From Halorubrum xinjiangense (GTDB lineage: Archaea; Halobacteriota; Halobacteria; Halobacteriales; Haloferacaceae): DNA of 64,000 nt. The stretch lies in NCBI RefSeq assembly GCF_900102375.1, contig NZ_FNBO01000008.1:62001-126000 (forward strand). The letters are read 5' to 3'. Below, piece by piece: positions 6,986-37,795 of this stretch. The number at the start of each line of letters is the position of its first letter. The first letter of the stretch is position 1. Under the pieces are notes generated by a model. That model was not told the DNA's origin, did not search any database, and saw only the letters and a list, made by a program, of their open reading frames with translations. The position numbers and the translations under genes were made by a program.

Positions 6986-9787
6986 ATGTCCGACCGCATT
7001 CCGGTCCTCCTCGTCGACGACGACCCGGACCTCCGCGCGGTCACCGCCTCCTACTTAGAGCGCGAGGCCGACCGGATCGCGGTCGAGACGGCGCTCGACG
7101 CGGCCGCCGGGCTCGACGTCTTGGCGGATCGCGAGGTCGAGTGCGTCGTCTCCGACTACGAGATGCCCGGAACAGACGGGCTCGAGTTCCTCGCCACGGT
7201 CCGCGAACGCTACCCGGAGCTCCCGTTCATCCTCTTTACCGGACGGGGGAGCGAGGAGGTCGCGAGCGAGGCGATCTCCGCCGGCGTCACCGACTACCTC
7301 CAGAAGCGGGGCGGCACGGAGCGGTACGAGCGATTGGCGAACCGGATCGTCGAGGCCGTCGAGAAGCGCCGGGCTGAACGGGACGCCGAGCGAGCGATCG
7401 GCCAGTTCCGCGCGGTCGCGGAAGGGGCGTCGGACGCGATCCTGTCGATCGACACCGACAGCGTGATCCGGTTCGCAAACCCGGCCGTCGAGTCCGTGTT
7501 CGGGTACGAACCGTCGGAGCTGGAGGGGGAGCCCCTGACGACGCTGATGCCCGAACGACACCGCGAGGACCACCGCGAGGCGGTCGATCGATACCTCGCC
7601 TCCGGCGAACGCGGCGTCGACTGGTCGGACGTTCGGTTCAACGCGCTCCACCGCGACGGCCGGGAGATCCCGGTGTCCGTATCGTACGGCGAGTTCTCGG
7701 CGGACGGCGAGCGGCAGTTCGTCGGCGTGATCCGCGACGACAGTGAGCGCGACCGACACCGGGCGTTCATCGAACACGCCGGCGACGTGGTCGCGGTGCT
7801 GTCGAGCGAGTGGCGGTTCCGGTACCTGAGTCCCTCCTGTGAAAGCGTGACGGGCCACGCGCCGTCGGACCTGATCGGAGAGCGGTCGTTGGACTACGTC
7901 CACCCGCACGACCGGGAGGCGGTGAAGGCGGCGTTCGGCGACGTCCGCGCGGGCGGAGACCCGCCGACCGCCGAGTACCGGTTCGAGACGGCCGACGGGG
8001 AGTACCGCTGGCTCGAATCGGTCGGCAGCGATCGGATCGAGACCGACGGGGTCGAGGGGTACGTCGTCACCACGCGCGACGTCTCCGCGCGGAAGGAGCG
8101 CGAGCGCACGCTCGCCCGGCTCCGTGAGTGGACCCGGGAGCTCAACTACACCCGGACCACCGACGAGGCGGCCCAGCTGGCGGTCGAGGCGGTCGACGAC
8201 CTGATCGACGCCGGCCTGAGCGGTATCCACTTGCGCACCGAGGACGGAGACCGCCTCGAACCGGCCGCGCTCGGCGAGTCGGTTCCCTCGATGTTCGAGA
8301 CGCAGCCGGCGTACGACCGGGACGAGCCGCCCGGGACGCGGGCGGCGCTGGCGTGGGACGCCTTCGAGGGCGAGGAGTCGGTCGTCATCGACGAGCTGTC
8401 GTCGTACGAGTCCCTCGACGAGGCCTCGCCCGCGGAGAGCCTCGTGTTGCGCCCGATCGGCGGCCACGGGCTGTTCGTCGTCTCCGCCCCGGAACCGCAC
8501 GTCTTCAGCGACACGGACGTGCTCGTGGCCGAGATCCTCTCCGGCCACCTCGAGGCGGCGCTCGACCGCATCGAGCGGGAGAGCCGCGTCGAGCGGCTCC
8601 ACGGCGCCACCCGGACGCTCGTGCGAGCGGAGTCCCGGGAGGAGATCGCCGAGCGGGCGGTCGAGGCGGCCACCGACGTGCTGGGGTTCTCGATCGTCAC
8701 CGTCCGGGTCCACGACGAGGCGGCGGGCGGACTGGTTCCGTCGGCGGTCTCGCCGGAGGCCGAGGAGCTGCTGCCGGACCGCGAGACGTTCACGCCCGAC
8801 GGCGGGAGCCTCAACTGGGGGGCGTTCGAGGCCGGCGAGACGCGGATGTACGACGACATCCGGGCGGCGGACGCGCTCGACGCCGACACGGCGCTCCGGA
8901 GCCTCCTGATCGTCCCGATCGGCGAGTACGGGACGATCGCGATCGGCGAGACGGAGCCGGGGGTGTTCGACGGGGTCGACGAGTACCTCGCCGGGATCTT
9001 GGCGACCGCGGCCGAGACGGCGTTCCAGGCGGAGGCGCGCACCCGGCGGCTCGCCGAGCGGACCGCCGAGCTGGAGCACCAGAACGACCGCTTAGAGGAG
9101 TTCGCGGGCGTGGTGTCACACGACCTCCGGAACCCGCTCGAAGTCGCGCGCGGCCGGACCGAGCTGGCCCGAGAGGAGTGCGACAGCGAGCACCTGACGG
9201 CGGTCGAGCGCGCGCACGATCGGATGACCGCGCTGATAGACGACCTGCTCACGCTCGCCCGCGAGGGCGACCCCGTGACCGACGCCGAGCCGGTCGACCT
9301 GGGACGCGTCGTCGGCTCCTGTTGGCGGACCGTTGACACGAGGGGCGCGACGCTGCGCAACGAGGCCGAAGGGACCGTCGTGGCGGACGAGGGGCGGCTC
9401 AAACAGCTGTTAGAGAACCTGATCCGGAACAGCGTCGAGCACGGCTCGACGGGCAGCGAGGGACGGAGTCCCTCGAGCAACCAGGCTCCGCCCGGTGACA
9501 GCCGGACGGAGTCCGGCGACGCGGTCGAACACGGCGGCGGGGACGTGACGGTCACGGTCGGGACGCTCCCCGACGGCTTCTACGTGTCCGACGACGGGCC
9601 GGGGATCGACCCGGCCCGGCGGGAGGCGGTGTTCGACGCCGGCCACTCGACCTCGCAGTCGGGGACCGGGTTCGGGCTGCGGATCGTCGAGCAGGTGGCC
9701 GACGCGCACGGCTGGTCGGTGCGGGCGGTCGAGAGCGAGGCCGGCGGCGCGCGGTTCGAGGTCACGGGCGTCGAGTCCGCGAACTGA
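6986..9787 (+). CDS. Hybrid sensor histidine kinase: receiver-PAS-PAS-GAF-GAF-HisKA-HATPase
   Basis: 933-residue soluble signal-transduction kinase. A receiver domain (residues 1-125, phospho-acceptor D57 in SDYEMPG) is followed by two PAS domains (~140-255 and ~260-370), two GAF-like domains (~380-540 and ~545-690), a HisKA helix with H712 in VVSHDLRNPLEVARG, and a HATPase domain with an N-box (ENLIRNSVEHG) and G-boxes (DDGPGID, GTGFGLRIVEQ). There are no membrane segments. TATA-like GTTATATC at 6955-6962 puts the start near a leaderless ATG at 6986. The N-box is interrupted by a ~30-residue Ser/Gly/Pro-rich insert (from 9446) that repeats VEHG on both sides and contains two perfect DNA hairpins. 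No dedicated output regulator lies alongside. Confidence 0.93.
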   Translation: MSDRIPVLLVDDDPDLRAVTASYLEREADRIAVETALDAAAGLDVLADREVECVVSDYEMPGTDGLEFLATVRERYPELPFILFTGRGSEEVASEAISAGVTDYLQKRGGTERYERLANRIVEAVEKRRAERDAERAIGQFRAVAEGASDAILSIDTDSVIRFANPAVESVFGYEPSELEGEPLTTLMPERHREDHREAVDRYLASGERGVDWSDVRFNALHRDGREIPVSVSYGEFSADGERQFVGVIRDDSERDRHRAFIEHAGDVVAVLSSEWRFRYLSPSCESVTGHAPSDLIGERSLDYVHPHDREAVKAAFGDVRAGGDPPTAEYRFETADGEYRWLESVGSDRIETDGVEGYVVTTRDVSARKERERTLARLREWTRELNYTRTTDEAAQLAVEAVDDLIDAGLSGIHLRTEDGDRLEPAALGESVPSMFETQPAYDRDEPPGTRAALAWDAFEGEESVVIDELSSYESLDEASPAESLVLRPIGGHGLFVVSAPEPHVFSDTDVLVAEILSGHLEAALDRIERESRVERLHGATRTLVRAESREEIAERAVEAATDVLGFSIVTVRVHDEAAGGLVPSAVSPEAEELLPDRETFTPDGGSLNWGAFEAGETRMYDDIRAADALDADTALRSLLIVPIGEYGTIAIGETEPGVFDGVDEYLAGILATAAETAFQAEARTRRLAERTAELEHQNDRLEEFAGVVSHDLRNPLEVARGRTELAREECDSEHLTAVERAHDRMTALIDDLLTLAREGDPVTDAEPVDLGRVVGSCWRTVDTRGATLRNEAEGTVVADEGRLKQLLENLIRNSVEHGSTGSEGRSPSSNQAPPGDSRTESGDAVEHGGGDVTVTVGTLPDGFYVSDDGPGIDPARREAVFDAGHSTSQSGTGFGLRIVEQVADAHGWSVRAVESEAGGARFEVTGVESAN
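9434..9535 (+). repeat. In-frame 90-bp palindromic insertion within the kinase N-box region
   Basis: Near-identical 12-base repeats (GTCGAGCACGGC at 9434-9445 and GTCGAACACGGC at 9524-9535) are spaced exactly 90 bases apart, a multiple of three. Between them are two perfect hairpins with GGA loops: arms CGAGGGAC / GTCCCTCG at 9457-9475, and arms GCCGGAC / GTCCGGC at 9501-9517. The inserted protein segment is disordered-looking and rich in Ser, Gly, Pro and Glu. The layout resembles an insertion with target duplication that keeps the reading frame. Confidence 0.75.
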
Positions 9788-24324: not shown

Positions 24325-24830
24325 TTTTATAAGCGAATGCGGTGGCGCGCGCCTCCGAGCGGCCGCCTCCGGCGGCCGCGAGGAGCGCGTGCGAGGGACG
24401 CCGCGAACGCCCGCAGGGCGTGAGCGGCGAGGCTGGGGAGGCGTGAGGTGCGGTTGCTGTGCGGGGCGGGACTCAAAGGGGCAGCCGCGAGGCGGGCGCA
24501 GGCGTTCACGAGAGCGGAGCGCTCGTGAGCCAATCAGAACGCTTCGCGTTCTGATGACGACGCAAGCACCACAGGGAGCGAGCAGCGCAAGCGAACGAGG
24601 AGCGTGGCTCGAGAGGGCAAAGCTCTCTCGTCATCGCCAGAAATCGGAGATTCTGGCTAGCTGCCAGACTCCTCCGGAGTCTGGCAACATCACAAGACGC
24701 CTTCGGCGTCTCGAACGACAGCGAGCGTGCGCCCGCCTCCCGACTGGGGCTTCGGTGATGTCGGTGTCGATCGGCCATTTATAGGTAAAAGCGTGCGGCC
24801 GAGCGGCTGGGCTTTGGAAGCGTTCGCCGC
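24325..24830 (+). repeat. Palindrome-rich structured intergenic element, copy A
   Basis: About 510 bp without a conserved reading frame, homologous in layout to 37361-37795. A TATA box (TTTATAA, 24326-24332) precedes block 1, GTGGCGCGCGCCTCCGAG (24342-24359). Block 2, GAGGCTGGGGAGGCGTGAGG (24429-24448), is identical in both copies. Block 3 holds CGAGGAGCGTGG (24596-24607) and CTCTCGTCATCGCC. Block 4, starting CGGCTGGG (24804-24829), ends with GGAAGCGTTCGCCG. Between blocks are perfect hairpins with three-base loops: ATCAGAACGC/GCGTTCTGAT with TTC; TGCCAGACTCC/GGAGTCTGGCA with TCC; AGACGCC/GGCGTCT with TTC; GCGGCCGCC/GGCGGCCGC with TCC; ACGCCC/GGGCGT with GCA. A structured RNA or palindromic mobile element is likely; I know no name for it. 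Confidence 0.75.
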
Positions 24831-37360: not shown

Positions 37361-37795
37361 ACTTATATATCAGGCCGTGGCGCGTGCCTACGAGGCCGCC
37401 CCGCGGTCGAGCCGGGAGGGACCTCCGGCCACTTTAGAAGCCGGCGCTTCGCGCCGGCGACTGACAGGGCGAGAGCTTCGCTCTCGCTTGCAGCCGGACG
37501 TAGTCCGGCGACGAGGCTGGGGAGGCGTGAGGCTGCGGTCCCGCGAGCGACCGGAGAGAGCGAGCGAGAGGACGGAAGTCGCAGCCCACGCAGCGAACGG
37601 TGCGAGGTGCGAGCGGAGCGAACGAGCGAGGAGCGTGGTTCGAGAGAGTTTCGCACTCTCGTCATCGCCGGAAGTCGGAGACTTCCGGCTAGCAGTCAGA
37701 ATCCATGGGATTCTGATAACCTCCCGAAAATCGGAGATTTCTGGCGACACCGAGCTGCGAGTCTTCGCGGCTGGGGATTTGGAAGTGTTCGCTGT
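37361..37795 (+). repeat. Palindrome-rich structured intergenic element, copy B
   Basis: About 435 bp, second copy of the element at 24325-24830, 13 kb away and in the same orientation. A TATA box (TTATATAT, 37363-37370) precedes GTGGCGCGTGCCTACGAG (37377-37394). The shared core GAGGCTGGGGAGGCGTGAGG is at 37513-37532, CGAGGAGCGTGG at 37627-37638, CTCTCGTCATCGCC just after, and CGGCTGGGGATTTGGAAG at 37768-37785. Hairpins: GCCGGCGC/GCGCCGGC and GCGAGAGC/GCTCTCGC, both with TTC loops; GCCGGAC/GTCCGGC with GTA; CCGGAAGTC/GACTTCCGG with GGA; TCAGAATCC/GGATTCTGA with ATG. Arms differ from copy A but remain complementary. No frame is conserved between copies. Confidence 0.75.

Follow-up and report, generated by a model that had tools for sequence, protein, structure and literature searches.

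Within the window, a 64,000-nucleotide stretch of the Halorubrum xinjiangense genome, an ORF of 933 amino acids carries an insert in frame, as identified from the ORF list and Pfam. This insert consists of four triloop hairpins, one of them decayed and one sharing the codons of the N-box, that are connected by RGCA and GAC linkers. The features of the gene and its insert, together with an intergenic chain of similar hairpins in the same window, are as follows:

6986–9787, forward strand: sensor histidine kinase gene that hosts the insert (ORF list; Pfam domains REC-PAS-PAS-GAF-HisKA-HATPase_c)
9433–9451, forward strand: hairpin 1, CGTCGAGC-ACG-GCTCGACG (repeat finder, triloop scan; covaries synonymously in relatives)
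9446–9535, forward strand: in-frame 90-bp insert encoding STGSEGRSPSSNQAPPGDSRTESGDAVEHG, missing in most orthologs
9457–9475, forward strand: hairpin 2, CGAGGGAC-GGA-GTCCCTCG, perfect (repeat finder; the stem recurs in intergenic chains)
9480–9496, forward strand: hairpin 3, ACCaGGC-TCC-GCCcGGT, decayed, with one pair broken
9501–9517, forward strand: hairpin 4, GCCGGAC-GGA-GTCCGGC, perfect (sequence, repeat finder)
9524–9535, forward strand: second copy of the N-box end (VEHG; repeat finder)
37440–37509, no strand assigned: intergenic chain of three triloop hairpins with loops TTC, TTC and GTA, including copy B

The insert is drawn directly after the N-box (NSVEHG), and a placement shifted by the repeat would be equivalent. 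The flanking 12-base near-repeats detected by the repeat finder, GTCGAGCACGGC (9434–9445) and GTCGAACACGGC (9524–9535), are 92% identical and start 90 bp apart. Hairpin 1 is perfect, with the left arm formed by the native N-box codons and the right arm by the start of the insert; hairpin 3 is intact in the kinase ortholog L170 and in the intergenic locus L139. An earlier note, made from the sequence alone, had claimed a 90-bp insert with 12-base near-repeats at its flanks, in frame in a histidine kinase, and this held. Both of the perfect GGA-loop hairpins that it listed also held, as an incomplete count of the four; overlooked were the identity of the N-box codons with a hairpin arm and the one-mismatch hairpin between the perfect two. 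Finally, the second of its hairpins was said to be nearly identical to copy B, which was confirmed: copy B (37493–37509, GCCGGAC-GTA-GTCCGGC) has the same arms, with a GTA loop in place of GGA. Two other kinases of the same genome (L013 and L023) contain N-box inserts with other repeats (SERGGD and APDADAP..., respectively), and the SERGGD-type insert opens with a hairpin-B unit, as defined below.

Hairpins by themselves were rejected as evidence of an element, 7-bp triloops being common at the GC content of the window (69%): there are 27 triloop palindromes with arms of at least 7 bp in the window, compared to a mean of 15.1 and a maximum of 23 in shuffled sequences. Specific motifs are far rarer. 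The sequence GCCGGACNNNGTCCGGC occurs in only three places in the 3.26-Mb genome, one in the kinase at 6986–9787, one at copy B, and one in another kinase, at its N-box (reversed control, 0), and the longer motif GCAGYCGGRCNNNGYCCGRCGAC occurs in nine places in this genome and is matched in 45 of the 52 Halorubrum genomes (control, 0). With up to two mismatches allowed, GCAGYCGGRCNNNGYCCGRCGAC has 18 matches in the genome (reversed control, 2), of which nine lie in five kinase N-boxes and four in hairpin chains outside kinases, whereas the remaining five are probably due to chance. The similarity to the intergenic copies is far above the reversed control both in the genome and across the genus, so the refuting condition set by the earlier note, a resemblance to copy B no better than chance, does not hold.

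The recurring unit is a 45-bp module that consists of AGC, hairpin A (7+3+7 triloop), an NNGCA linker, hairpin B, and GAC. Modules occur singly or in chains, both between and within genes, and the intergenic chains have the same stems and the same spacing as the kinase module. A composite chain is common to the kinase analyzed here, its ortholog L170, and intergenic DNA of the same genome, where L139, a non-kinase chain, contains hairpins 2 and 3 in the order of the kinase insert, with different loops; this chain was detected in 28 of the 52 genus genomes (control, 0). Noncoding hits carry 3.2 triloop hairpins per 323 bp, compared to 0.15 in shuffled sequences, at least one hairpin per hit being guaranteed by the search design. 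The spacing of the hairpins near noncoding hits is mostly 22–24 bp; the most frequent values are 22 and 23 bp for the noncoding and kinase copies and 22 bp for other genes.

The 147 distinct motif hits in the fetched loci comprise 75 in noncoding DNA, 46 in kinases, and 26 in other coding sequences, as called by a GC-by-codon-position rule. Because some of these loci were fetched via kinase-directed searches, the number of hits in kinases (46) does not represent a genome-wide proportion. The 26 hits in other genes represent about 18 sites in about 16 unrelated families. According to Pfam, the hosts include 5-formyltetrahydrofolate cyclo-ligase (2 sites), DUF7095, aconitase/LeuC, DUF302, aldehyde ferredoxin oxidoreductase, SDR oxidoreductase, DEAD helicase, Hsp70/DnaK, PurD, PurA (2 sites), HemC, nitrite/sulfite reductase, and molybdopterin oxidoreductase as well as GH15 and an RNA methyltransferase, in which the element is inserted in reverse orientation (LeuC, PurD, PurA, and HemC are what we take these proteins to be from the names of the Pfam families). 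A Pfam family was found in 18 of the 20 scanned host proteins, the exceptions being L234 and L238; 6 of the 26 hits were not scanned and were assigned as orthologs of scanned proteins by local sequence. A single strand and codon phase is used in 67 of the 72 coding hits (23/26 in other genes and 44/46 in kinases). As read from the sequence, the module in DnaK has no stop codon in any of the three forward frames; that one phase is used nevertheless suggests, as a possible inference, either that the polar peptide is selected for or that Asp codons are preferred as targets.

The insertion is absent from most orthologs of the host kinase. The closest named orthologs are from Halorubrum. We retrieved 30 orthologous loci from the 52 genus genomes, and among the 28 in which the N-box could be parsed, 5 contain hairpin inserts, 1 an irregular insert, and 22 none. 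The hairpin inserts are 45 (three cases, including L167 and L179), 90, and 135 bp (L170) in length. By species, the ortholog of H. sodomense carries 135 bp and that of H. distributum 45 bp at this site, and those of H. californiense, H. trapanicum, H. coriense, H. tebenquichense, and H. ezzemoulense carry no insert. A tree of 28 of the 30 ortholog rows, from which the insert region was left out, requires at least three changes of the insert; in this tree, L167, with an insert, and L175, without one, are sister genes with full support. Kinase arrays are tandem, with periods of 45, 48, or 51 bp, and 69 of the 70 distinct units differ in length by multiples of three. One unit in L072 (G111:C1:2752748), of 46 bp, breaks the multiple-of-three pattern. 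Separately, L042 (G006:C9) contains several near-identical 45-bp units with one unread base and a frame shift, likely an assembly problem typical of such repeats.

Filled and exactly empty sites were found outside kinases as well. DnaK was matched in 49 of the 52 genomes, and only one (G004) encodes a longer form, with exactly 45 bp more than relatives with 95–97% protein identity: the filled site reads ...GAGATC[45 bp]GGCGAC..., and the relatives have ...GAGATCGGCGAC... (1 filled and 20 empty sites among 21 parsed loci of 30). The filled case rests on a single genome, with an estimated contamination of about 6%. DUF7095 was matched in 51 of the 52 genomes, and of 30 loci, 11 are filled, with 13–29 additional codons and differing stems, and 19 are empty. 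The DUF7095 tree requires eight changes, at least six of them forced by supported branches, which could mean either that this site has gained inserts repeatedly or that gains were often followed by exact loss. The module is preceded by ATC and followed by GGCGAC in DnaK and mostly has GAC on both sides in DUF7095; no constant target duplication was found at the flanks of these two genes. In several DUF7095 loci (L320, L322, L327, L330, L333, and L336), TAG was reported in the matched frame, with or without an insert.

Across the class, the hairpin-B motif was detected in 118 of the 242 sampled genomes, representing 40 of the 74 genera. VEHG-hairpin-VEHG arrays are present in 32 of the 52 genus genomes and, class-wide, in 72 of 194 genomes (29 of 65 genera). 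The reversed-pattern controls yielded no matches in any of these searches.

The stems covary. In 43 distinct 45-bp units that were picked without reference to stem B, this stem is paired at 92%, compared to 74% in shuffled data (largest shuffle, 80%); 15 of the 43 stems are imperfect, and there are 10 distinct perfect ones. Synonymous third codon positions of the 70 distinct units in kinases pair in 84% (Val/Ser) and 89% (Glu/Gly) of the cases, against shuffled means of 49% and 54%, respectively, with the N-box codons GTG and GAA accompanied by TCC and GGT. These shuffles ignore sequence kinship; because the stems and codon combinations vary, several independent changes are likely nevertheless. 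Hairpins are also shared within genomes: of 455 pairs from the same genome, 98 (21.5%) have identical B hairpins, versus 6.6% of pairs from different genomes (maximum of label shuffles, 12.9%). Same-genome sharing between kinase and noncoding copies (8/84) is reached by 1 in 1000 shuffles and rests on three genomes; that between other coding and noncoding copies is weaker (8/91; reached by 38 in 1000 shuffles).

GNA or TNC loops were observed in 158 of the 217 hairpins near noncoding hits (12.5% expected for random loops), 33 of 55 near other coding hits, and 43 of 152 near kinase hits, where 61 of the 152 have the ACG or ATG loop that the His codon imposes on hairpin A. A strict loop rule was rejected; GNA/TNC holds best outside genes. 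Loops on the same stem are often reverse complements of each other (GAA/TTC, GGA/TCC). GNA triloops are unusually stable in DNA. Because GNA and TNC loops both occur, we infer that the structure that matters is likely that of DNA rather than RNA.

In the AlphaFold model of the kinase (244 amino acids modelled, with 20 kinase sequences), the mean pLDDT is 70.7, and residues 131–160, exactly the 30 inserted ones, fall below 50, between the N-box helix (113–128) and a strand (166–172); another low stretch, at 195–207, is unrelated to the insert. From this prediction, we infer that the kinase likely tolerates the insert as a disordered surface loop. The proposal of the earlier note that a disordered loop is added at the ATP-binding N-box is thus supported by this model. 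Its broader claim that short palindromic units have spread between genes and into coding DNA is supported as well, the recurring unit being the 45-bp module and the host genes many and unrelated. Its refuting condition that all orthologs contain the segment does not hold: most lack it, and those of the genus carry 0, 45, 90, or 135 bp.

Thus, the kinase insert very likely belongs to a palindromic element that is dispersed in haloarchaea and enters both coding and noncoding DNA. We show here that this element is dispersed and sits in frame in unrelated genes, that exactly empty sites exist, that it has been gained or lost recurrently, that its stems covary, and that hairpins are shared within one genome; that the element is largely selfish or neutral, and that the structure (arms and triloop) rather than the exact stem sequence is copied or maintained, are inferences. 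The reading frame survives insertion because 45 bp make 15 codons and the frame in use yields a peptide that is polar and probably unstructured (such as SEAQSASGSRTQSGD). Hairpin A of the histidine kinases coincides with the N-box codons (VEHGST), so that each insertion or tandem duplication would recreate an intact N-box and extend the adjoining surface loop. A bolder reading, which we lean slightly against, is that of a mobile element defined by structure, in which the hairpin form (7-bp arms, fixed linkers, and a triloop that is of the GNA type on one strand) is copied or maintained while the bases of the stem change freely and simultaneously in the two arms, and which has been repeatedly written into haloarchaeal housekeeping genes, adopting host codons as one arm at the kinase N-box. 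In this computational survey, no mobilizing enzyme was found and no insertion was caught in real time.

Among the rival explanations, template switching at short inverted repeats (quasi-palindrome correction) survives best: stems would be kept or remade by this process, and the palindromes would be mutational products rather than a mobile element. It would account for the coupled change of both arms, and reverse-complementary loops on the same stem are expected from loop inversion. However, it covers the upkeep of the arms only and leaves unexplained how 45 bp with conserved linkers reached new sites in unrelated genes; as a full account, it falls somewhat short of probable, but might operate alongside the mobile element. 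Less plausible is that an IS200/IS605-type Y1 transposase (RAYT-like) moves the hairpins in trans, as it does REP elements. Hairpins with short conserved flanks fit single-strand DNA recognition, and Y1_Tnp is present in 41 of the 52 genus genomes. However, the Y1 count does not correlate with that of the element (52 genomes; Spearman 0.10, p 0.48), the 11 Y1-free genomes average 4.8 elements versus 5.1, and the motif is absent from all 30 scanned Y1 loci and their flanks, which makes this explanation unlikely. Replication slippage at the N-box would produce tandem expansion only, with the hairpins a by-product of GC-rich codon choice. The tandem kinase arrays with their multiple-of-three unit lengths and the preferred codons GTC GAG CAC GGC TCG, palindromic on their own, are compatible with this explanation, but it is contradicted, and very unlikely, because two-hairpin modules with other A stems are inserted in DnaK, PurA, LeuC, and other genes without an N-box; the module is also intergenic, and GTG and GAA codons pair with TCC and GGT. 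Slippage possibly still accounts for changes of unit number within kinases. Selection of the hairpins as RNA (terminators, stability, or translation control) could be favored by the many intergenic copies (75 of 147) but is very unlikely given that the two loop orientations form different structures in RNA, that coding copies lie deep within genes, and that no Rfam family matched the window at the gathering threshold.

With the dispersed element as the preferred reading, the closest known counterparts are the Rickettsia palindromic elements (RPEs; Ogata et al. 2000), which are 105–146 bp long, with long stem-loops and terminal inverted repeats, and are found between genes and in frame within unrelated conserved protein genes (PMC2229807). 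The haloarchaeal element shares this distribution but differs in having a 45-bp module of two 17-bp triloop hairpins, with covarying stems and often chained, and an archaeal host range that spans the class. Because size, structure, and taxon differ, we treat it as analogous to RPEs, without relatedness having been shown, rather than as one of them. The protein-coding repeats reported from Methanocaldococcus jannaschii (Suyama et al. 2005, cited in PMC2229807 and PMC2996958) are likewise archaeal palindromes with coding potential within protein genes, but from a distant lineage. The CGTC- and GTAG-tagged REPs (PMC3733652) are also small hairpin repeats, some of them intragenic. In most of the 43 units, the linkers at hairpin B are GACAGC or GACGCC (reverse, GCTGTC or GGCGTC), so that hairpin B on the reverse strand is preceded by TGTC or CGTC, resembling the CGTC tag, which Asp/Ser/Ala codons would explain as well. 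However, CGTC REPs have stems of 8–9 bp and loops of 4–5, compared to 7 (some longer) and 3 here, and the haloarchaeal element has a TGC tail instead of CCA adjoining the stem, and alternating A and B hairpins. The GTAG tag was not found in the linkers of the 43 units, nor was the association with RAYT genes, a feature of GTAG REPs, found in the 30 Y1 loci or in the counts. PATEs and small mobile repeats of Haloquadratum (PMC3119063) are similarly haloarchaeal, transposase-free, and palindromic, without target duplication. PATEs, however, are tied to IS605-type ends, whereas no Y1 link was found for the present element (only Y1_Tnp loci, not TnpB-only elements, were scanned), and no in-frame coding insertions are described in the relevant sections of PMC3119063. 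The hallmark of MITEs, terminal inverted repeats with target-site duplication, is not met, as DnaK and DUF7095 show no constant duplication.

In-frame palindromic 'selfish' DNA has been reported in Rickettsia and Wolbachia and in one methanogen (cited in PMC2996958); in the open-access literature that we searched, this haloarchaeal element is not described. An archaeal counterpart that spans the class, is present or absent at given sites in close relatives, and has culturable hosts (Halorubrum, Haloferax) would make the movement of such elements and the tolerance of enzymes to 15 extra residues testable. The element would also explain the repeats that adjoin the N-box of haloarchaeal sensor kinases and cautions against reading these as functional domains.

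Two further observations concern related repeats. In L068–L097 and the class-wide array matches, kinases of other haloarchaeal families contain a 48-bp N-box unit with a different second hairpin, which has a variable stem of 5–6 bp, a fairly constant 10-nt loop, and a peptide like SPRSQARED; this unit is possibly a sister element. In the window, the intergenic regions 24420–24720 and 37500–37720 both contain GAGGCTGGGGAGGCGTGAGG and long hairpin chains. Because a GAGGCTGGGGAGGCGTGAGG-like sequence (reverse complement) adjoins many intergenic copies in the genome G003, there seems to be a larger composite repeat, several hundred bases in length.
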